Assembly: GCA_945492685.1 (NCBI GenBank)
Contig: CALYUZ010000011.1
Coordinates: 1 to 10,795, forward strand
Direction: 5' to 3'
Source: an uncultured Methanomassiliicoccaceae archaeon
Lineage (GTDB): Archaea; Thermoplasmatota; Thermoplasmata; Methanomassiliicoccales; Methanomethylophilaceae
Length of the DNA: 10,795 nt
Translations under genes and position numbers: made by a program
Notes under the pieces: model-generated
The model's database searches: none
What the model was told of the DNA's origin: nothing
What the model saw: the letters and a program-made list of their open reading frames with translations, nothing else
Part shown: positions 1,302 through 10,700 of the stretch, one piece after another
How the letters are laid out: the number at the start of each line of letters is the position of its first letter
Numbering within the stretch: position 1 is the stretch's first letter

Positions 1302-3119
1302 ATGTCCAATCTACTCGCTGATGGGGGAAAGCAGCTCCTCCTCGGAAACGAGGCGATCGTGAGGGGTCTCCTGGAATCAGGGACCGGTTTCGCCTCCACC
1401 TATCCCGGAACACCTTCTTCCGAGATCGGAAACATCCTCGAGAAGATCTCGTCCGACGCCGGACTCTACTTCGAGTTCTCCACGAACGAGAAGGTGGCCT
1501 TCGAGGTCTCCGCGGCCGCCGCATCCGCAGGCGTCAGGTCGTTCACGTTCATGAAGCACGTCGGACTCAACGTGGCAGCCGATCCGATGATGACCCTCGC
1601 TTATTCGGGTGTCAGGGGAGGTATGCTCATCCTCTCCGCCGACGATCCGTCCGCACACAGCTCCCAGAACGAGCAGGACAACCGCTATTACTCCACTCTC
1701 GCGTTGCTCCCCATGATGGAGCCCTCAACACCACAGGAGGCCAAGGACATGGTCGCCGAGGCTTACAGGGTGTCAGAGGAGCTCACACTGCCCCTGATCT
1801 ACAGGACCACCACCAGGGTTAACCACGCACGCGGGGTCGTCAACCTGTCCGACAGGGTCCAGCCGGTTGCCAAAGGACACTTCGACAAGGATGTCGTGCG
1901 CTTCGTCAACGTGCCCGCGAACGCCAGGATCAACAGGAAGAGACTGCTGGAGATCTACGCCAAGGCCGCTCAGATGTCCGAGGAGTCCCCCCTCAACTTC
2001 ATCGAGGGAGACGGTGATATCGGAATCATAACCTCGGGTGTGTCCTACACCTATGTGAAGGAGTTCGTCAAGGGCGTCTCCATCCTCAAGCTCGGATTCA
2101 CGAACCCCCTTCCCGAGAAGAAGATCGCATCCTTCGTCCAGGGGAAGAAGGCCGTCATCGTGGTTGAGGAGCTGGAGCCCTTCGTCGAGGACCAGGTGCT
2201 GAGGATCTGTGCCCAGAACCACATTGGTGTCCCCGTATACGGAAAGAGGACCGGTCATCTGCCCAGGGCATGGGAGTTCTCACCCGACACACTGTCCGGA
2301 ATCAGGGACATAGTCAATGTGGAGGAGTTCGCGAAGCCCCTGCCCGCATCCACCGTCAAACTGCCCAGCAGGCCCCCGACACTATGTGCGGGATGCCCCC
2401 ACAGGGGACTGTTCGGCGCGACCAAGAAGGCCGTCGGAAGCAAGGACGTCGTCTACTGTTCCGACATCGGGTGCTATACCTTGGGCGTTCAGCCGCCGTT
2501 CAATGCCGCCGATTTCATCATCTGTATGGGCGGAGGCGCCGGTGCGGCGGGAGGTTTCGACCAGTCCACCGACCAGAAGGCCATCGCATTCATGGGAGAT
2601 TCCACATTCTTCCACTCGGGAGTGCCCCCGTTGGTTAACGCCCTGTTCAACAACCACAAGATCGTCATGGTCATCCTGGACAACAGGACAACGGCCATGA
2701 CCGGACACCAGCCCAACCCCGGAACAGGAAGGGACTTCGGCGGCGTGACAACAGATGCCATCGACATCGAGCAGCTTGTCCGCGGGGTCGGGGCCAAGTT
2801 CGTCGAGACCGTCGATCCTTACGACGTGAAGAGGACCACTCAGGTCATGAAGGATGCCATCGCCTACGACGGTGTCGCTGTCGTGATCTCCAAGTGCCCC
2901 TGTCCCCTCGAGCTGAAGAAGAGGAAGATGCTGGAGGCAAAGCGCTGCGTCGTCCATCCCGAGGGCTGCATCAAGTGTTACACATGTCTCAAGACCGTCG
3001 CCTGCCCGGCCATCATCAAGGGCAAGGATGGGTCCGTCTCCACCGATCCCACACAGTGCATCGGATGCGGCATGTGTGCCAATGTTTGTCCCAAGAAGAC
3101 CATCGAGGTGATCAGATGA
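1302..3119 (+). CDS. iorA: Indolepyruvate:ferredoxin oxidoreductase, alpha subunit
   Basis: 605 residues, the normal IorA length. IorA with IorB oxidatively decarboxylates aryl-2-oxoacids (indolepyruvate, phenylpyruvate, hydroxyphenylpyruvate) to aryl-acetyl-CoA and reduces ferredoxin; methanogens can run it backwards to make aromatic amino acids from aryl acids. The N-terminal pyrimidine-binding domain opens with LLLGNEAIVRGLLESG and has TYPGTPSSEIGN. The motif CAGCPHR is at about 362-368. The thiamine-diphosphate fold runs from GDSTFFHSG (432-440) to DNRTTAMTG (460-468). The C-terminal ferredoxin domain binds two [4Fe-4S] clusters: C556, C559, C562 and C568 (five-residue last spacing, normal for this family), then C586, C589, C592 and C596. 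ATG 1302 is supported by GAGGT at 1291-1295. It overlaps iorB by four bases. Expected to be cytoplasmic and oxygen-sensitive. Confidence 0.97.
   Translation: MSNLLADGGKQLLLGNEAIVRGLLESGTGFASTYPGTPSSEIGNILEKISSDAGLYFEFSTNEKVAFEVSAAAASAGVRSFTFMKHVGLNVAADPMMTLAYSGVRGGMLILSADDPSAHSSQNEQDNRYYSTLALLPMMEPSTPQEAKDMVAEAYRVSEELTLPLIYRTTTRVNHARGVVNLSDRVQPVAKGHFDKDVVRFVNVPANARINRKRLLEIYAKAAQMSEESPLNFIEGDGDIGIITSGVSYTYVKEFVKGVSILKLGFTNPLPEKKIASFVQGKKAVIVVEELEPFVEDQVLRICAQNHIGVPVYGKRTGHLPRAWEFSPDTLSGIRDIVNVEEFAKPLPASTVKLPSRPPTLCAGCPHRGLFGATKKAVGSKDVVYCSDIGCYTLGVQPPFNAADFIICMGGGAGAAGGFDQSTDQKAIAFMGDSTFFHSGVPPLVNALFNNHKIVMVILDNRTTAMTGHQPNPGTGRDFGGVTTDAIDIEQLVRGVGAKFVETVDPYDVKRTTQVMKDAIAYDGVAVVISKCPCPLELKKRKMLEAKRCVVHPEGCIKCYTCLKTVACPAIIKGKDGSVSTDPTQCIGCGMCANVCPKKTIEVIR
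3104..3112 (+). promoter_or_regulatory. Strong Shine-Dalgarno site of iorB inside the iorA end
   Basis: GAGGTGATC matches nine bases of the Shine-Dalgarno consensus complementary to the 3' end of archaeal 16S rRNA. It lies within the last codons of iorA, with GAGGT seven bases before the iorB ATG at 3116. It fixes the iorB start and shows coupled translation, keeping the two subunits in step. Confidence 0.8.
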
Positions 3120-3706
3120 AGTACACTGTGCAGATAGTCGGAGTCGGAGGACAGGGTGTCCTCCTGGCATCCATGGTCCTGGGGAATGCTGCCATGGAGA
3201 TGGGTTTCCAGGTGGCCATGAGCGAGGTCCACGGAATGGCCCAGAGGGGAGGAAGCGTCCTTTCCACACTCCGCTTCGGAGATGAGGTCATCACTCCCCT
3301 GGAGGCCGTCGGGAATGCGGATATGATCATGGGATTCGAACCCTCCGAGACATGCAGGAACATCCACCTGGCCAACGAGGATTCCGTCATCCTGATGAAT
3401 CTCGATCCCGTCCTGCCCTCCATGGTCGCAGCCGGATTCGAGGAATATCCCGAGGTCTCCGACCTGGTGGATTCCGTCAAGGCTGTGAACAACCACCTGG
3501 TGACCATCGACGCCACGAGTCTGGCCATCAAGGCGGGGAAGGCCGTTGCGGCGAATGCGGTCATGATCGGTGCGGTCGCCGCACTGGATGGATTCCCCAT
3601 ACCCAAGGATGTCCTGAAGGATGTCCTGGGGAAGCAGGTCCCCGAGAAGTTCAGGGAACTCAACCTCAACGCCTTCGAGATGGGCTACGAGGCTGCAAAA
3701 CACTGA
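3116..3706 (+). CDS. iorB: Indolepyruvate:ferredoxin oxidoreductase, beta subunit
   Basis: 196 residues, the usual IorB size. It starts with the 2-oxoacid oxidoreductase gamma-domain signature VGVGGQGVLLASMVLGNAA (about residues 8-26), followed by SEVHGMAQRGGSV and LEAVGNADMIMGFEP, all typical of IorB and PorG. The subunit has no iron-sulfur motif of its own and pairs with IorA to form the active enzyme. The start is ATG 3116, overlapping the iorA stop as ATGA. An in-frame extension upstream is open but lies inside iorA and would ignore the strong ribosome site, so it is not used. A hairpin terminator follows directly. No acyl-CoA synthetase gene, which often acts on the product, is found in this window. 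Confidence 0.96.
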   Translation: MKYTVQIVGVGGQGVLLASMVLGNAAMEMGFQVAMSEVHGMAQRGGSVLSTLRFGDEVITPLEAVGNADMIMGFEPSETCRNIHLANEDSVILMNLDPVLPSMVAAGFEEYPEVSDLVDSVKAVNNHLVTIDATSLAIKAGKAVAANAVMIGAVAALDGFPIPKDVLKDVLGKQVPEKFRELNLNAFEMGYEAAKH

Positions 3707-3752: not shown

Positions 3753-4574
3753 TCATCTCTGACAGTTCGGACAGAAGTAGCTGCTCCTGTTGGAGATGAC
3801 CGTTCTGAGGATCGTCGTACCGCATGTCGGACATGGATCCCCCTCATGACCGTACATGACATACGGAGATTCCTCCCAGTCTCCCTCTCTGCCTGACAGA
3901 TACCACTCGGGTGACTCGAGGTCGTCTGACAGTCCTTTTCCTAGAACCTTCGGAATGAGGTCCGATATCCTCTCCCAATCACCCGTCTCCAGTGTATCAG
4001 CCTTGCGTGTCGGACAGATCCCCGCACCGAAGAGGATCTCGTCGGCGTAGATGTTGCCGATTCCTGCAACGACTGACTGGTCCAGGAGGCATGATTTCAC
4101 GCATCTCCTGCAGTGTCCGACACGTTCTTCCAGGTATTGTCCTGTGATATCGCCGTCCAAGGGCTCCGGACCGAGCCTGGACATGCCCGTGAACGTGTCC
4201 TCTTCCTCATCCCTGATCAACCAGAACCTGCCGAACCTCCTGGAATCAGTGAAACGGAGGTCGGTTCCATCATCGAGTCTGAAAATGATGTGGGTGTGCT
4301 TCTGCTCAGGCTCGTCCGACGGGACGGATAACATCCTGCCTGTCATGCGTAGGTGGAACCAGATGCTGTCCCCGGAATCCAGTTCGAGTGATACGTACTT
4401 CCCGCGTCTTCCCATTGAGACTATGGGGTGTCCGACGCAGAGGTCCCGGAAGATGGATGGATCGGGATGCTCGATGATCTCGGGTCTGTTCATGGTGACG
4501 GACACTATCGTCCTACCGATGGCCTTCGGCTCCAGCATGAGCCTCATAGACTCCACCTCGGGGAGTTCTGGCAT
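3753..4574 (-). CDS. mutM: Formamidopyrimidine-DNA glycosylase (Fpg/MutM)
   Basis: 273 residues, the usual Fpg length. It removes oxidised purines such as 8-oxoguanine and FapyG and nicks the abasic site by beta/delta elimination. After Met removal the N-terminus is PELPEVE, giving the catalytic Pro2 and Glu3. Lys59 in MGRRGKYVSL is the beta-hairpin lysine. HLRMTG (74-79) is the void-filling loop region, and FTDSRRFGRF (108-117) is conserved. The H2TH element is LLDQSVVAGIGNIYADE (163-179). The C-terminal zinc finger has C248, C251, C268 and C271, with Arg263 in NRSSYF as the DNA-binding arginine. All key residues are present, so it should be active. It starts four bases after pncB, so the two are co-transcribed. 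Fpg is widespread in bacteria but uncommon in archaea, so acquisition from bacteria is likely. Confidence 0.96.
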   Translation of the reverse strand: MPELPEVESMRLMLEPKAIGRTIVSVTMNRPEIIEHPDPSIFRDLCVGHPIVSMGRRGKYVSLELDSGDSIWFHLRMTGRMLSVPSDEPEQKHTHIIFRLDDGTDLRFTDSRRFGRFWLIRDEEEDTFTGMSRLGPEPLDGDITGQYLEERVGHCRRCVKSCLLDQSVVAGIGNIYADEILFGAGICPTRKADTLETGDWERISDLIPKVLGKGLSDDLESPEWYLSGREGDWEESPYVMYGHEGDPCPTCGTTILRTVISNRSSYFCPNCQR

Positions 4575-4578
4575 GGTA

Positions 4579-6060
4579 TCACTGTCTTCCGGAGGATACC
4601 TTCTCGCTCTGCTCCCTCAGGAGGGCTATCTTCGACTCGTAGTAGGCGGGGCTCATGTCCATGTGATGGATGTGAGGATTCTCGAACCTCTGCTCCTCCT
4701 GCCAGATCTCGTCCCTGAGCTGTCTCTCCACGTATTCCCTGATATCGCGGATGCTCCTGACGTCCCCGACTCTCTTCCCATCGGAGATGACCTTCCTGAG
4801 CAGGGGCTTGAAGGTGCAGTCGGTCAGCGTGATGTCCATCCAGGGTTTCTTCGGATCGATGCATCTGTACGGTCTTCCGGATTCGGGCTGCTCCCAGTCG
4901 TGTGTTATAAGATCCGCTACCGCGTGTCCTGTCCTGTCATACACACGGAAGACAGACTTCCTTCCGGGATTGGTTATCTTCTCCACAGCCTCCGATACCT
5001 TGATCTTGGGCTGACATACACCGTCCTTCTCGATCGCGGATATCTTGTACACGGCTCCGAAGACCGGATCGCTCTTGGCGGTGATCAGACGCTCGCCGAC
5101 TCCGAACGCATCGATGCAGGCGCCCTGATCTATGATGGATGTGATGGAATACTCATCCAGGCTGTTGGAGGCGATTATCCGACAGTCATCCAATCCTGCA
5201 TCATCGAGCATCCTGCGGACCTCCTTGGTGAGGTATGCGAGGTCACCCGAGTCCAGACGTACTCCCTTGAGCCTCTTGCCCATGGGTTCCAGGATCTCTT
5301 TGGCGGTGCGAATGGCATTGGGCGTTCCAGACCTGAGGACATCGTAGGTGTCGATCAGGAGGACGGTGTCGTCCGGATATATCTCTGCATATTTCCTGAA
5401 TGCCTCGAACTCCGAATCATGGTACATCACCCAGCTATGGGCCATGGTACCGCTGATGGGGATGTCGAACATCTGTCCGGCCAGCACTGTTGCGCTTCCC
5501 GCGGCACCGCCGATGTATGCGGCTCTGGCACCGAAAACTGCGGAATCCATGTTGTGGGCCCTGCGGGCACCGAAGTCGGACACTGCCCTCCCGTCTGCAG
5601 CTTTCACGATCCTGCGGGCTTTGGTGGCGATGAGGGACTGATGGTTGATCTGCGCGAGGATGGCGGTCTCCACAAGCTGCGCATCTATGAGTGGTGCGTT
5701 GACCACGAGTATCGGCTCGTTGGGATAGATGATGGTGCCCTCATCGAAGGCTAGGATGTCCCCTCTGAAACGGTAGTCGGACAGAAACTCCAGGAACCTC
5801 TCGTCGAACATACCCAGGGATCTGAAGTAATCGATGTCCTGGGAATCGAAGTGCATGTTCTCGATGTAGTCTATCACCTGCTCCAGACCGGCGAAGATCG
5901 CGAATCCCCCATCATCGGGGATCCTGCGGAAGAACACCTCGAAGGTGGCCATGTGCTCCTCGTGTCCCTCAAGGAAATAACCATTGGACATCGTCAGTTC
6001 ATAAAGGTCCATGACCATCGTCAGATTGCGCTCATCTCCCATGCTCATATGTTCCACCAT
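4579..6060 (-). CDS. pncB: Nicotinate phosphoribosyltransferase
   Basis: It joins nicotinate and PRPP to give nicotinate mononucleotide, the Preiss-Handler step of NAD salvage. From ATG 6060 it has 493 residues, near the size of bacterial Firmicutes-type enzymes. Visible family motifs are RNLTMVMDLYELTMSNGYF (11-29), SDFGARRAH (161-169), SGTMAHSW (203-210) with His208 as the candidate phosphorylated catalytic histidine, GVRLDSGDL (266-274) and SNSLDEYSI, then FGVGERLITAKSDPVFGAVYKI. Start choice: ATG 6060 has GAGGT (plus-strand 6065-6069) four bases upstream and lies at a sensible distance from a TATA-like box. Longer frames reach 6099 or 6135, and ATG 6048 or 6042 would trim a few residues. 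It is followed by fpg with a four-base gap. The bacterial flavour of both genes suggests they may have been acquired together. Confidence 0.93.
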   Translation of the reverse strand: MVEHMSMGDERNLTMVMDLYELTMSNGYFLEGHEEHMATFEVFFRRIPDDGGFAIFAGLEQVIDYIENMHFDSQDIDYFRSLGMFDERFLEFLSDYRFRGDILAFDEGTIIYPNEPILVVNAPLIDAQLVETAILAQINHQSLIATKARRIVKAADGRAVSDFGARRAHNMDSAVFGARAAYIGGAAGSATVLAGQMFDIPISGTMAHSWVMYHDSEFEAFRKYAEIYPDDTVLLIDTYDVLRSGTPNAIRTAKEILEPMGKRLKGVRLDSGDLAYLTKEVRRMLDDAGLDDCRIIASNSLDEYSITSIIDQGACIDAFGVGERLITAKSDPVFGAVYKISAIEKDGVCQPKIKVSEAVEKITNPGRKSVFRVYDRTGHAVADLITHDWEQPESGRPYRCIDPKKPWMDITLTDCTFKPLLRKVISDGKRVGDVRSIRDIREYVERQLRDEIWQEEQRFENPHIHHMDMSPAYYESKIALLREQSEKVSSGRQ

Positions 6061-6108: not shown

Positions 6109-6135
6109 CCGAGATGCCGGGATACGGGTGAACAT

Positions 6136-6165
6136 GGAAAAATAGTGAGGGGTCTGTGCCCCTCA
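6136..6165 (-). terminator. Terminator of the cdrS-ftsZ operon
   Basis: On the minus strand TGAGGGG-CACAGA-CCCCTCA (6146-6165) forms a 7-bp GC-rich stem with a 6-base loop and is followed by CTATTTTT, a clear U-run. It lies about 70 bases after the ftsZ stop and just before pncB. A second, weaker GC-rich hairpin (GCAGG at 6183-6187 with CCTGC at 6201-6205, or CCCCT-CGC-AGGGG on the minus strand) lies between it and ftsZ and may assist termination or protect the mRNA end. Confidence 0.65.
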
Positions 6166-6232
6166 GAGGAGAAAAGATGAATGCAGGAGAGCGGCGCCCC
6201 CCTGCGAGGGGAGAAAAGCGTTATGTTGTGAA

Positions 6233-6931
6233 TCAGGCGCTCATGAGCTGTCTGATGGGGAAGGCATTCTCCGGTGCCTTCTCTGTGACCATCCTGGGCT
6301 TGGATGCCTCGTCATCGTAGATCTCGTTGACGATGCGGACCTGGTCCATGACGTACTTCATGATGCTCCTGTTGACCTCCCTGAACGCCTTCTCGGGCGA
6401 GAGGTCGGACATGTGGTTGAGAACGAGGTCGTTCTCCACGAGGATGCTGTTGCGGCAGACGTTCTTGATGTGTGCGTAACCGATCTTGGCGGTCTCGATC
6501 CTGGAACCCTCGAAGGAGAAAGGCGCGATCGCGATGGCGAAGGTCATGATGCCCTGCGACTGAGCTGCCTCGATGACGACGGATGCGGCCCCGGTCCCGG
6601 TTCCACCGCCGAGTCCCGCGACGACGAAGACGAAATCATGACCGGCGACTGCCTCCCTGATCTCCTCTCTGTGGATATCCGCGCACTTCTTTCCGATGGC
6701 GGCATCTCCGCGTGCTCCCTCTCCCTTCAGAACCTCCTTGCAGATGTAGATCTTCTGATCCGCCTGGGTCCTGTTGTGGAGGGCATCCTTGTCCGTGTTG
6801 ATCGCGATGGTGTCCACTGAGCAGAGAGATCCGAAGAACTCGCTGATGACGTTGCATCCTGCACCGCCCACACCCACGACCGCAATGCTCGGCTCGTGAA
6901 GTCCTTCAATGTCTGTTCTGTGATCCACCAT
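6233..6931 (-). CDS. Short FtsZ-like protein: GTP-binding domain only, no T7 loop
   Basis: 232 residues, against roughly 350-400 for normal FtsZ. The GTP-binding half is complete: VVGVGGAGCNVI (18-29), INTDKDAL (44-51), the tubulin/FtsZ signature GLGGGTGTGAA (106-116), the APFSFEGSR loop (136-144), and END (166-168) at the guanine-contact loop. Helix H7 follows as AFREVNRSIMKYVMDQVRIV (182-201). The chain then ends with about 30 unrelated residues (EIYDDEASKPRMVTEKAPEN and a short tail). The T7 loop (NxDFADV type), which supplies catalytic aspartates to the next subunit, and the whole C-terminal domain are missing. The protein should bind GTP but should not activate hydrolysis in a neighbour. 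It follows the cdrS-like gene by 110 bases, presumably in one operon. Start ATG 6931 fits the fold; the longer frame to 7135 overlaps cdrS and looks non-coding. No ribosome site is strong. Confidence 0.9.
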   Translation of the reverse strand: MVDHRTDIEGLHEPSIAVVGVGGAGCNVISEFFGSLCSVDTIAINTDKDALHNRTQADQKIYICKEVLKGEGARGDAAIGKKCADIHREEIREAVAGHDFVFVVAGLGGGTGTGAASVVIEAAQSQGIMTFAIAIAPFSFEGSRIETAKIGYAHIKNVCRNSILVENDLVLNHMSDLSPEKAFREVNRSIMKYVMDQVRIVNEIYDDEASKPRMVTEKAPENAFPIRQLMSA

Positions 6932-7041: not shown

Positions 7042-7398
7042 TCACTTGAGTGCAGCGTTCCTCTGGGCCGATCTGAACGCGTTGGTGAACACGTCCTTCT
7101 CGACCTCCTCTGGTACGATCCTGTCGAGGACGCACCTTCTGACGAACTCCTCGACATCGTAGGCGACACCGCCTTCGACGATCTTGTCGAGAGCATCCAT
7201 CTGGAGTTCGCTGAAGCGGACGAAGATCCCGCCTTCCATCGCGGAGGCACCGCCCCTTTGAGAGGCGATGTAACCACAGATGGCGTCACGGATGAAGTCG
7301 GACCTGTTCTCAATCTCATGATCAGCCATGAAGTCCTCCATCGCCTGGATTACCTCAGGTCCCATCCTGATCGTGACCTTGGTTGCCTCGTCCGACAT
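7042..7398 (-). CDS. CdrS-like regulator with two tandem ribbon-helix-helix units
   Basis: 118 residues from ATG 7398, with GGTGA (plus-strand 7404-7408) five bases upstream. The first unit, residues 8-44, is a classic ribbon-helix-helix: strand KVTIRM, helix EVIQAMEDFMA, then RSDFIRDAICGYI. Residues 58-94 align to it without gaps (IFVRFSELQMDALDKI, then EEFVRRCVLDRI), suggesting a second unit and a one-chain pseudo-dimer. The tail ends in RSAQRNAALK. In haloarchaea the short RHH protein CdrS is encoded next to ftsZ2 and controls cell division; by position and fold this is its counterpart, though orthology is inferred. The promoter carries GTCNGAC palindromes beside its TATA box, which fits autoregulation. 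An open extension to 7473 is disfavoured because it would run past the ribosome site. Confidence 0.87.
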   Translation of the reverse strand: MSDEATKVTIRMGPEVIQAMEDFMADHEIENRSDFIRDAICGYIASQRGGASAMEGGIFVRFSELQMDALDKIVEGGVAYDVEEFVRRCVLDRIVPEEVEKDVFTNAFRSAQRNAALK

Positions 7399-7814: not shown

Positions 7815-10700
7815 ATGGCATTCGATTACGGTAAGATGGAAGAGAAATGGCAGGCCAGGTGGGTCGAGGCGGGACTCGACAAGGCCGAGAGGGACGATAG
7901 CAAACCGAAGTTCATGGCGATCTTCGCGTACCCCGGTGTCACGGGATACCTGCACGTCGGTCACCTCAGAGGATACACCTATGTGGACGCCATCGGAAGG
8001 TACAAGCGCATGACCGGCTACAACGTCCTCTTCCCCGTGGGAACACACGCTACGGGAAACGGGGGCATCAGTCTGGCCAAGAAGATCGCCAACGGCGACG
8101 AGAAGACCATCGACTACCTCGTAAGGAACGGATGTCCCGAGGAGAAGCTCGCCGAGCTCAAAGACCCCATGTCCGTCATCGAGTTCTTCAACGATGTCTA
8201 TCAGAACGACTACTGGAGGAGGTTCGGATTCCTCGCCGACTGGAGGAGGTTCACCTGCACCCTCTATTCCGACTACGGCAAGTTCATCCAGTGGCAGTTC
8301 AGGAAGCTCAAGGATGCCGGGCTCCTGATCCAGAAGCCCTACTACGCCTCCGTATGTCCCAACTGCGGACCCGTTGCTGTCGACCCCTCCGAGACCGACC
8401 TCTCCAAGGGAGGAAAGGCGGAGACGCAGGAGTACACCCTCCTCAAGTTCAGACATGGTGACGAGTATCTGATCGCCGCCACCCTCAGGCCCGAAACTGT
8501 ATACGGACAGGTCTGCTTCTGGGTCAACCCCGAGGTGGAATACAAGAAGATCACCAAGGATGGGGAGACATGGATCGTATCCCCTCAGGCCGCCGAGAAG
8601 ATGGTCCTCCAGAAGGATGGCATCGAGGTTGTCGGCTCCATCCCCGGAAGGGACATGATCGGCTGGATGTGCGAGGCACCCATGATCCATCGCGAGATCC
8701 CCGTGTTCCCCGCATCATTCTGCAACCCTGATGTAGGTACTGGACTGGTCACATCCGTGCCGTCCGACGCTCCCGACGACTGGATCTCCCTCGAGGCGGT
8801 CAAGAAGGATCCCAGGATGGTCTCGGAGTACGGACTCTCACAGGAGCTCATCGATTCCGTCGTCCCCATCTCCATCATCGAGATGAAGGGATACGGAGAC
8901 TTCCCCGCGAAGGACATGATCGACCGCCTGGGCATCAAGGAGCCCGGGGACCCCAAGCTCGTGGACGCGAAGAAGCAGGTCTACAAGGACGGCTACCACA
9001 TGGGCAGGATGAAGGCCGTCTGCGGAGAATTCGCCGGAATGCGTGTCGAGGAGGCCAAGGACAAGATGCGTCAGGCCATGATCGACGCCGGTGAGGCGGA
9101 GCCCTTCTTCGATCTGACCGAGGAGGTCGTGTGCAGATGCGGAGCCAGGGTCCACATCAAGAGGATCGACGATCAGTGGTTCATCAACTACGCAGACAAG
9201 GACCTGACCGAGAGGACCTCCGAGCACTGCAGGACCATGGACATCAACCCCGCAGAGTACGCGGACAACGTCCACGGAGTCCTGGACTGGTTCAGGGAGA
9301 GGGCATGTGTCAGGATGGGTAACTGGCTCGGAACCAAGTTCCCCTTCGACGACAGATGGATCATCGAGGCCATCTCCGATTCCACCCTGTATCCCATATA
9401 CTACACGATTTCCCTATACGCCAACGAGAAGCAGATCGTCCCCGATCAGATGACAGAGGAGTTCTTCGACTACGTCATCCTCGGAAAGGGAGAGATGTCA
9501 CAGGTATCCGCATCCACAGGGGTCTCCGAAGAGCTTCTGGACAAGATAAGGAAGGATGTCCTCTACTGGTACCCCCTGGACATGAACCTGGGAGGAAAGG
9601 AGCACATGACCGTGCACTTCCCCGTGTTCCTGTTCAACCACGTTGCCATCCTCCCGCCTGAGATGTGGCCCAAGGGAATAACCGTCAACTGGTATGTAAC
9701 GGGAAAGAACAGCGACAAGATCTCCAAGTCCAAGGGAGGTGCGCAGCCCATCCCCGGAGCAGCCGCGAAGTTCGGTGTCGACGCCATGAGGCTGTACTAC
9801 GCCCATGTGGCATCCATGTTCGTGGATGTGGAGTGGAGCGAGGACACCGTGATGACCTACAGGCAGAGGGTCGACAGGATCATGGGTGCCGTTCAGGACC
9901 TGATCGCATCCGAGTCCGATGCCCCCAGGGGAGGCATGGACGACTGGCTCCTGTCCAGATTCAACAACCATCTGGCGGCCATCAGGAAGGCCATGGAGAA
10001 GAACGACCTCAGGGCAATGGCCACAATCGTCTACTTCGACATGTTCAACGACATGAAGTGGTACAACAGGCGCGGAGGCTCCAACAGGGACACCGTCAGG
10101 GAGGCACTGGCCATCTGGATCCAGGCAATGATGCCCATAACACCCCACACCGCGGAGGAGCTTTGGGAGCAGGCGGGATTCGACGGATTGGTATCTGCGG
10201 GACAATTGCCCGAGCCCGACGAGTCCAAGATGTCAGTCGCAGCGGAGTACGGCGAGAATCTGATCCGTGACGTCATGTCCGACATCACCGAGATCAGGAA
10301 GATCGCAGGGATCGAGCCCAAGAAGCTGATCATGTACACCTCCGCCCAGTGGAAGAAGGACGTCATGAGGATGGGATGCGAGATGCTCGAGGAGGGCAAG
10401 CTCACCGTCCCCGACCTCACCAAGAGATGCATGCAGGACGAGAACATCAAGAGGAACGGAAAGGCCGCTTCAGAACTCGCCAAGAAGGTCGCGGTGGAGT
10501 TCGTCAGGTCCACACCCGAGGCCAAGAGGCCTGTGTTCGAGACCGATGAGGCCGTCCTGTTCTCCGATGCGGCGGCATTCCTTTCCGAGGAGACCGGAAT
10601 CCCCGTGGAGGTCTACTCCGCCGACACCGAAGGCATCTACGATCCCCAGAACAAGGCGAGGCAGGCCGCACCCGGAAGGCCCGCGATCTTCCTGGAGTGA
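7815..10700 (+). CDS. leuS: Leucyl-tRNA synthetase, archaeal/eukaryal type
   Basis: 961 residues, normal for archaeal LeuRS. It charges tRNA-Leu with leucine in the cytoplasm. The class I HIGH motif is HVGH (47-50) in GYLHVGHLRGYTY, followed by NVLFPVGTHATGNG. The CP1 editing domain, which hydrolyses mischarged tRNA, shows the threonine-rich TLRPET (223-228) and VTSVPSDAPDD (312-322) with the acidic residues needed for editing. RACVRMGNWLGTKFPFDDRW precedes the second half of the Rossmann fold, and the KMSKS motif is KISKS (635-639) in TGKNSDKISKSKGG. The rest is the anticodon-binding helical domain and the archaeal C-terminal extension. ATG 7815 fits the TATA box at 7765-7772. The next gene begins six bases after the stop, so they may form an operon. 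The upstream GTCNGAC array suggests specific control. Confidence 0.98.
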   Translation: MAFDYGKMEEKWQARWVEAGLDKAERDDSKPKFMAIFAYPGVTGYLHVGHLRGYTYVDAIGRYKRMTGYNVLFPVGTHATGNGGISLAKKIANGDEKTIDYLVRNGCPEEKLAELKDPMSVIEFFNDVYQNDYWRRFGFLADWRRFTCTLYSDYGKFIQWQFRKLKDAGLLIQKPYYASVCPNCGPVAVDPSETDLSKGGKAETQEYTLLKFRHGDEYLIAATLRPETVYGQVCFWVNPEVEYKKITKDGETWIVSPQAAEKMVLQKDGIEVVGSIPGRDMIGWMCEAPMIHREIPVFPASFCNPDVGTGLVTSVPSDAPDDWISLEAVKKDPRMVSEYGLSQELIDSVVPISIIEMKGYGDFPAKDMIDRLGIKEPGDPKLVDAKKQVYKDGYHMGRMKAVCGEFAGMRVEEAKDKMRQAMIDAGEAEPFFDLTEEVVCRCGARVHIKRIDDQWFINYADKDLTERTSEHCRTMDINPAEYADNVHGVLDWFRERACVRMGNWLGTKFPFDDRWIIEAISDSTLYPIYYTISLYANEKQIVPDQMTEEFFDYVILGKGEMSQVSASTGVSEELLDKIRKDVLYWYPLDMNLGGKEHMTVHFPVFLFNHVAILPPEMWPKGITVNWYVTGKNSDKISKSKGGAQPIPGAAAKFGVDAMRLYYAHVASMFVDVEWSEDTVMTYRQRVDRIMGAVQDLIASESDAPRGGMDDWLLSRFNNHLAAIRKAMEKNDLRAMATIVYFDMFNDMKWYNRRGGSNRDTVREALAIWIQAMMPITPHTAEELWEQAGFDGLVSAGQLPEPDESKMSVAAEYGENLIRDVMSDITEIRKIAGIEPKKLIMYTSAQWKKDVMRMGCEMLEEGKLTVPDLTKRCMQDENIKRNGKAASELAKKVAVEFVRSTPEAKRPVFETDEAVLFSDAAAFLSEETGIPVEVYSADTEGIYDPQNKARQAAPGRPAIFLE

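Follow-up and report, generated by a model that had tools for sequence, protein, structure and literature searches.

An FtsZ paralog reduced to its GTP-binding half in Methanomethylophilaceae and other Thermoplasmata

In FtsZ and tubulin, GTP is hydrolysed when the T7 loop of one subunit enters the nucleotide site of the next. The C-terminal domain of FtsZ supplies the lower face of the subunit, and helix H7 packs against this domain. The DNA analysed here (the window) carries a gene for an FtsZ that ends shortly after H7, which raises the question of whether this gene is a damaged copy or encodes a protein with a job of its own, and of what that job could be. The window is a whole contig of 10,795 bp from a metagenome-assembled genome (MAG; 1.05 Mb, 200 contigs, 67% complete) of Methanomethylophilaceae, a family placed by the NCBI taxonomy within Methanomassiliicoccales, Thermoplasmata. 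An original prediction, made from the sequence of the window, had proposed either that the protein regulates or caps a full-length FtsZ encoded elsewhere or that it is a polymer-independent GTP switch. In the following, f1 denotes Methanomethylophilaceae, the family of the window, and g1 the genus of the window, which is the main genus of the family; f2 to f6 are other families of the order Methanomassiliicoccales, and f7, f9 and f12 are other families of the class Thermoplasmata.

Architecture of half-FtsZ

The encoded protein, referred to here as half-FtsZ, is matched by the Pfam family Tubulin (PF00091) over residues 15-172 (E 3.2e-33, 116 bits, cut-off 33). The NCBIfam profile TIGR00065 (ftsZ) aligns residues 12-201 with positions 16-206 of its 353, and the whole-protein score of 179 bits falls under the cut-off of 295.2 bits. 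The marks of the FtsZ-tubulin superfamily, namely the T1 and T4 loops and helix H7, are all present (Table 1), as is the ND motif. An alignment with almost no gaps through H7 shows no NxDFxD T7 motif beyond this helix. Pfam, TIGR00065 and the alignment therefore agree with the prediction of a GTP-binding half of FtsZ that retains its nucleotide-binding loops and H7 and lacks the T7 loop and the C-terminal domain. The frame closes again soon after the stop, as had also been predicted (TGA-TTC-ACA-ACA-TAA), and the next gene on the minus strand begins at 6135. A scan of 1.6 kb that covered both strands gave 4 sites matching the terminator pattern, against 1.1 expected. The claim that no missing half lies nearby is borne out by the FtsZ C-terminal domain profile (FtsZ_C, PF12327), for which the genome of the window gives 0 matches; a split gene with its C-terminal domain elsewhere was rejected for the same reason. 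Since the source MAG is 67% complete, it is the relatives that carry the argument that no separate C-terminal half exists.

Table 1 Positions of half-FtsZ, its sequence elements and its neighbours in the window, with one example of the second tubulin-family protein, L2
Feature	Position	Strand	Basis or remark
half-FtsZ (N-terminal GTPase domain and H7 only), 232 aa	6233..6931	(-)	ATG at 6931, TGA at 6233-6235
T1 nucleotide loop GVGGAGCN	6851..6874	(-)	ORF translation, ortholog alignment
T4 signature loop GGGTGTG	6590..6610	(-)	ORF translation, ortholog counts
Helix H7 (AFREVNRSIMKYVMDQVRIVNE)	6323..6388	(-)	extent by alignment; last element in common with FtsZ
29-residue tail replacing T7 and the C-terminal domain; last residues FPIRQLMSA	6236..6322	(-)	alignment
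Terminator-like stem 3' of half-ftsZ	6183..6205	(-)	pattern match only
Second terminator-like stem 3' of half-ftsZ	6146-6165	(-)	pattern match only
Ribbon-helix-helix (RHH) protein, 118 aa from MSDEATK	7042..7398	(-)	110 bp upstream of half-ftsZ, same strand
Leucyl-tRNA synthetase (leuS)	7815..10697	(+)	conserved neighbour
Indolepyruvate:ferredoxin oxidoreductase alpha-like (TPP enzyme; iorA)	1302..3116	(+)	conserved far neighbour; domains by Pfam
Indolepyruvate oxidoreductase beta-like (POR domain; iorB)	2984..3703	(+)	conserved far neighbour; start not settled
L2 example	L109:2411-3298 (G000:C66)	(-)	with relatives in alignment A2

Conservation and descent of the truncated form

To place the window's protein among its relatives, 73 short proteins were read (37 from f1, 23 from f2-f6, 4 from f7 and 9 from f9/f12). 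The T7 pattern is found in 0/73 of these orthologs, compared with 30/32 two-domain FtsZs of the order, and the two exceptions in the latter group are the degenerate proteins at loci L133 and L148. As the original prediction had suggested checking, the related homologues align and all stop before T7. Their length lies between 221 and 292 aa, with 21-69 residues from the T7 column onward. In contrast to this loss, the nucleotide loops are kept: the T4 pattern is present in 71/73 orthologs and T1 in 68/73, and the T1 residues G20, G22, G23, A24, G25 and N27 are invariant among the 33 orthologs of alignment A1. Although the MAFFT alignment set some tail letters under T7, none of the 73 proteins contains NxDFxD. 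A degenerate T7 concealed in the tail was rejected, because the nearly gap-free alignment and the end of the hhalign match at column 200 put the place of T7 beyond those letters.

Within the family, a protein-level match to half-FtsZ is present in 35/36 f1 genomes. The protein itself is counted in 34/36, comprising 32 copies read whole, the copy of G025, which is in two pieces at contig ends, and the copy of G006 (L088, G006:C113). In G006, which was left out of the 73 orthologs, T4 is destroyed and the adjoining RHH gene reads through; going by its sequence, this one species may be in the course of losing GTP binding. T4 is altered in L087 and L257 as well, and together with the loss in G006 this indicates that some copies may do without GTP binding. 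In G002, the match is to the second tubulin-family protein described below and not to half-FtsZ. Both G002 and G031 have neither half-ftsZ nor a close leuS, so the corresponding contig is probably missing through an assembly gap. Among the other families of the order, 23/24 genomes have one short FtsZ each, of 240-267 aa (one, at L080, has undetermined letters in its tail), and the contig of the remaining genome, G045, starts 265 bp before leuS. In a class-wide sample of 151 genomes, the matches listed for the half-FtsZ profile include further short frames. Thirteen of these loci (4 in f7, 9 in f9/f12), picked for their short open frames, encode proteins of 261-292 aa that all end without T7. 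None of the matches listed for this profile at E 1e-30 falls in the 10 genomes sampled from another Thermoplasmata family, f17, which may be either FtsZ-less or diverged.

These comparisons bear directly on the two trivial accounts of the gene. An assembly error or a recent frameshift of a normal FtsZ would be suggested by the location of the window on a contig of a 67% complete MAG. However, the same truncated architecture recurs in the single-contig genomes G007, G014, G030 and G033 and in dozens of others, and the window's genome has no FtsZ_C; this account has next to no probability left. As a control, 76 of the best 80 of 552 FtsZ loci have complete ORFs, 75 of them of at least 310 aa, and the one short ORF among those best 80 is a Methanomethylophilaceae locus (L149). 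A decaying relic of a lost FtsZ would have the G006 copy in its favour, but it is strongly disfavoured and very improbable in view of purifying selection, the occurrence in several families of the class and the retention of T4 in 71/73 proteins. The dN/dS of the core is 0.02-0.36 in 14/16 chosen pairs, and dS is saturated in the other 2. Taken together, relatives and purifying selection reject a pseudogene or an assembly error, and half-FtsZ is, on these comparisons, an old and selected paralog.

A GTPase-domain tree places the order's 55 short proteins in one group (UFBoot 54), within which those of f1 form a clade (UFBoot 96). When f7, f9 and f12 are added, all 45 of the short proteins sampled from the 73 fall with the two degenerate two-domain proteins into one group (SH-aLRT 81.6, UFBoot 93), and the f1 clade receives only 74.7/63 (SH-aLRT/UFBoot) in this larger tree. 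There, the group stands near the two-domain FtsZ of the order that we label FtsZ3, and half-FtsZ and FtsZ3 lie, with weak support, nearer to the RHH-linked haloarchaeal FtsZs than to the other haloarchaeal FtsZs. One old truncation would be the simplest reading of these trees. As the support for the clade is moderate, f9 may represent a separate, second truncation.

A solved structure marks where the likeness to canonical FtsZ ends. Profile A1 matches 1fsz_A, which we take to be the FtsZ of Methanocaldococcus jannaschii, with E 8.6e-58 over residues 34-229, that is, over the GTPase domain through H7. Canonical FtsZ continues into the T7 loop and FtsZ_C, whereas half-FtsZ has neither and scores under the TIGR00065 cut-off. 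The likeness to TubZ (4xcq, E 2e-11) and to phrog_4733 (PhuZ/TubZ, E 7e-5) is a weak one in the GTPase domain, far below that to FtsZ, and the PhuZ and TubZ tubulins of phages and plasmids are two-domain proteins. The CetZ family does not accommodate half-FtsZ, which has no second domain. FtsZl1 resembles half-FtsZ in that no C-terminal domain recognisable as that of FtsZ accompanies its FtsZ GTPase domain, but most FtsZl1 proteins (Makarova & Koonin 2010, PMC2875224) carry a coiled coil together with a helical C-terminal domain, and their T6-H7 region could not be identified, unlike the clear H7 seen here. With 221-292 aa in total and 21-69 residues from the T7 column onward, half-FtsZ was therefore rejected as a member of FtsZl1. 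An uncharacterised FtsZ-like clade of Culexarchaeia and others, positioned between FtsZ2 and CetZ, includes Thermoplasmata (PMC9723716); like half-FtsZ, this clade is FtsZ-related and has members in Thermoplasmata, and truncation goes unmentioned in the available part of that source. Makarova et al. 2024 (PMC11188069) report several Thermoplasmata that encode FtsZ but neither SepF nor PRC, and some in which all three are absent. This pattern fits the present data, and the available part of that paper likewise contains no mention of truncation. The term 'ftsZ' is absent from the main text of PMC4153887, PMC5011839, PMC7883539 and PMC8727293 and from the available part of PMC7203096, and Methanomassiliicoccales are unmentioned in that of PMC9871819. 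No description of half-FtsZ was found in the literature on archaeal FtsZ, SepF and division in Methanomassiliicoccales, with subscription papers and supplements outside the scope of the search; as far as searched, the family is new.

The tail that replaces T7 was described in the original prediction as short and unrelated. It is indeed short and free of T7, but not wholly unrelated: a motif recurs in the tails of the window's genus. The pattern P-x(2,4)-[LIMFY]-[IVLMT]-x-A, selected after the tails had been inspected, occurs in 22/28 g1 tails, mostly at the extreme C-terminus, and in 0/9 tails from other f1 genera. Over the whole of f1, the count of 22/37 compares with a mean of 0.9 and a maximum of 5 in shuffled tails, a shuffling that leaves relatedness in. 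In the other families, H7 extends with a helical amphipathic periodicity over the place of T7 (shuffled fraction 0.004 in f2-f6, 0.003 in f7 and 0.000 in f9/f12). The same columns of full-length FtsZ show no such periodicity (shuffled fraction 0.51), and the stretch after H7 in f1 is not significantly helical (0.25). The FtsZ C-terminal peptide is rare in these tails: DF[IV] lies within the last 10 residues of 16/32 two-domain FtsZs of the order compared with 1/73 short proteins, and in f1 a loose regular expression for the peptide matches 4/37 tails and the stricter DF[IV] 1/37. By eye, the f9 tails (L249-L256) show a PPVLEALKYV-like pattern and an LDxFLENYxH-like C-terminal end, which suggests another docking partner.

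Canonical FtsZ, L2 and SepF in Methanomethylophilaceae

The presence of other division proteins was surveyed by profile search. FtsZ_C is found in 0/36 f1 genomes compared with 24/24 genomes of f2-f6, the latter having 2-7 FtsZ_C matches and 3-8 PF00091 matches each. In 13 further f1 genomes, there is a single weak match, below the cut-off, in G133. It belongs to a two-domain FtsZ-like protein without an intact T7 motif, encoded between an RHH gene and TrmJ (G133:C21, L258:675-1730, minus strand). The matches listed for the half-FtsZ profile, at an E-value of 1e-30 or lower, include a second one in both G133, where it is this two-domain protein, and G175; both are deep members of f1, and the second FtsZ-like gene is perhaps an intermediate between FtsZ3 and L2. 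Canonical FtsZ thus appears to have been lost in Methanomethylophilaceae, with G133 and G175 as possible exceptions. In f2-f6 and f7, full-length FtsZs coexist with half-FtsZ. A tandem pair of FtsZ genes with an FtsZ3 gene nearby is seen at L136, L137, L131 and L142 (f2, f3, f6). The degenerate two-domain proteins of L133 and L148 (G047, G056) are FtsZ-like, about 300 aa long and have GGETGS at T4, and canonical FtsZs are also present in those genomes.

The second tubulin-family protein of f1, here called L2, is found in 30 of the first 36 f1 genomes, on which this count was made; 29 of them, including the window's, also have half-FtsZ, and G002 does not. In f2-f6, L2 is found in 0/24 genomes, the best scores, of at most 93 bits, falling on other FtsZs. 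L2 has two domains (hhalign to FtsZ3, 99.7% over 247 columns), but the C-terminal one has diverged too far to be matched by PF12327. At the T7 position, GPF[FY][ST][TM]F stands in 14/14 sequences, which have no T7 motif, and T4 is exactly GGGTGTG in 7/14. Its gene sits between an RHH gene (lost in some genomes) and TrmJ, near the ribosomal L10/L12 genes, and the order RHH - FtsZ3 - TrmJ recurs in 2/3 of the FtsZ3 loci laid out in f2-f6. Because of the hhalign match and the shared RHH/TrmJ place, L2 is taken to be a putative decayed FtsZ3; it is a family in its own right. In G032, G034 and G035, one genome from each of three genera, RHH and TrmJ abut, L2 is deleted and half-FtsZ is kept as the sole tubulin-family protein found. 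No L2 is present at the L12-TrmJ place of G031, and L2 is unseen in G003, where the contig ends at this place, and in G010, where TrmJ was not found. Half-FtsZ is the most widely retained tubulin-family protein of Methanomethylophilaceae.

SepF follows a similar course. The Pfam profile finds it in 2/36 f1 genomes, one of them below the cut-off, compared with 24/24 in f2-f6. A sensitive SepF profile applied to 23/36 f1 genomes reports it in 4, all outside g1 (G032, G033, G034 and G035), with the matches of G032 and G033 given by construction, as proteins of both were included in the profile, and that of G034 containing an internal stop. The same profile finds no SepF in 18 g1 genomes, including the window's, or in G031. 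In the deep f1 genera represented by G033, G032, G035 and G034 (L234, L235, L243, L244), SepF is strongly diverged. ESCRT-III was found in 0/60 genomes by a search of low power, in which the control rang for Sulfolobus only, below the cut-off.

These results divide the first proposal of the original prediction. Capping of a full-length FtsZ, or co-assembly with it, is conceivable in f2-f6, where such FtsZs coexist with half-FtsZ; for f1, where no canonical FtsZ was found, the proposal is not supported. With no canonical FtsZ in f1 and with L2 lacking T7 and gone from three genomes, a simple capper does not fit there. In a wider form, half-FtsZ could attach through its GTP face to the bottom face of a two-domain relative of FtsZ, whose filament it would end or block, the partner being full-length FtsZ in most Thermoplasmata and L2, in a non-hydrolysing hetero-pair, in Methanomethylophilaceae. 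This pairing with L2/FtsZ3 is the main rival to the reading preferred below, since both genes are RHH-linked and are kept together in most f1 genomes. L2 is retained in 30/36 f1 genomes while other FtsZs are lost, it preserves at least part of the C-terminal domain with its uniform GPF[FY][ST][TM]F segment, and full-length partners are at hand in the sister families and f7. Nevertheless, half-FtsZ persists in the three genomes from which L2 is deleted, and T4 of L2 is exact in just half of the 14 sequences; we consider a partner or capper of this kind possible, though somewhat doubtful. The second proposal, a polymer-independent GTP switch, survives, as half-FtsZ stays where no other tubulin was found.

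Gene neighbourhood and a possible function

The gene order leuS - RHH - half-ftsZ - iorB - iorA was read in regions of 10-12 kb from Methanomassiliicoccales. The product of 1302..3116 (iorA) is presumably an indolepyruvate:ferredoxin oxidoreductase. With the window excluded, leuS adjoins half-ftsZ in at least 10/11 f1 loci and at least 6/10 f2-f6 loci, iorA is near in at least 10/11 and at least 6/10, and RHH in at least 8/11 and at least 7/10; these counts are minima, because overlapping antisense frames were picked in the window and in some other loci. At 4051-5754(+) in the window, a long frame of 567 aa runs antisense to the genes for formamidopyrimidine glycosylase and nicotinate phosphoribosyltransferase; it is probably a by-product of GC-rich coding. 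In f7, the order is leuS - RHH - half-ftsZ - kinase in 4/4 loci, and RHH stands beside 8/9 of the f9/f12 half-ftsZ genes. A full-length FtsZ at this position in related genomes, which would have pointed to a recent deletion in the window, was not seen in any relative's locus read.

The RHH gene provides a possible link to cell division. Its assignment was made through homologs, the 143-aa frame itself having no Pfam match at E 0.01. The family of the window's RHH protein matches a small ORF directly upstream of FtsZ in 5/10 archaeal loci examined, from Haloferax sp. Q22, two other Halobacteriales, Methanocorpusculum and one Thermoplasmatota MAG (L158, L159, L177, L170, L166). In haloarchaea, CdrS influences division and is encoded in a cdrS-ftsZ2 arrangement with the RHH gene upstream, according to the available part of PMC8406309, and ftsZ2 is frequently found together with parD (PMC8178401, likewise in part). 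The window's locus is like the CdrS-FtsZ2 locus in its related RHH directly upstream, but the haloarchaeal FtsZ is full length and that of the window is halved (PMC8406309, in the part available). This kinship of the RHH genes suggests that half-FtsZ may belong to a cell-division regulon, and a role in division would follow from gene linkage only. A different job, as a GTP-binding regulator repurposed outside division, could lie in transcription together with the RHH protein or in translation or metabolism at the leuS/ior locus. The linkage to RHH, leuS and iorBA is compatible with such a job, as is the persistence of half-FtsZ where no other tubulin was found. However, housekeeping neighbours need not share a function, and haloarchaeal FtsZ genes are preceded by members of the same RHH family, of which CdrS has an influence on division there (PMC8406309); we regard this alternative as unlikely.

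The reading that we prefer, with a probability of about 0.42, is that half-FtsZ is an old Thermoplasmata FtsZ paralog, linked to a CdrS-type RHH gene, that would act as a GTP-dependent switch or scaffold without ordinary protofilaments. A switch or scaffold independent of protofilaments is favoured, since half-ftsZ is retained even in genomes in which no further tubulin was found. In the proposed course of events, an ancestral paralog would have permanently lost its T7 loop and C-terminal domain, and GTP would still be bound through the retained nucleotide loops. With T7 and the lower face absent, half-FtsZ should bind GTP without extending a filament or activating the adjacent subunit: the missing face would leave the neighbour's GTP unhydrolysed and the filament uncontinued. 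Helix H7 would be left free, having no C-terminal domain to pack on. In the other families, its continuation as an amphipathic stretch would suit self-association or the binding of a partner, and in the window's genus the tail motif may act as a docking-type motif.

For Methanomethylophilaceae, it is conceivable, at somewhat less than even odds, that cells divide without an FtsZ capable of forming canonical protofilaments and, in the main genus, without SepF; half-FtsZ, alone or paired with a T7-dead relative, or else other machinery would then do the job. The strongest point of the analysis is the apparent family-wide loss of canonical FtsZ with the half retained. How this family divides thereby becomes a specific question about two defined proteins. 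Surveys in which the GTPase domain is the criterion for FtsZ would list f1 genomes as FtsZ-positive and could overlook the loss. A conserved and selected FtsZ without T7 or C-terminal domain implies an independent job for the GTPase half. If this is true, half-FtsZ would be a tubulin-superfamily protein that works without the T7 mechanism by which the superfamily is defined.
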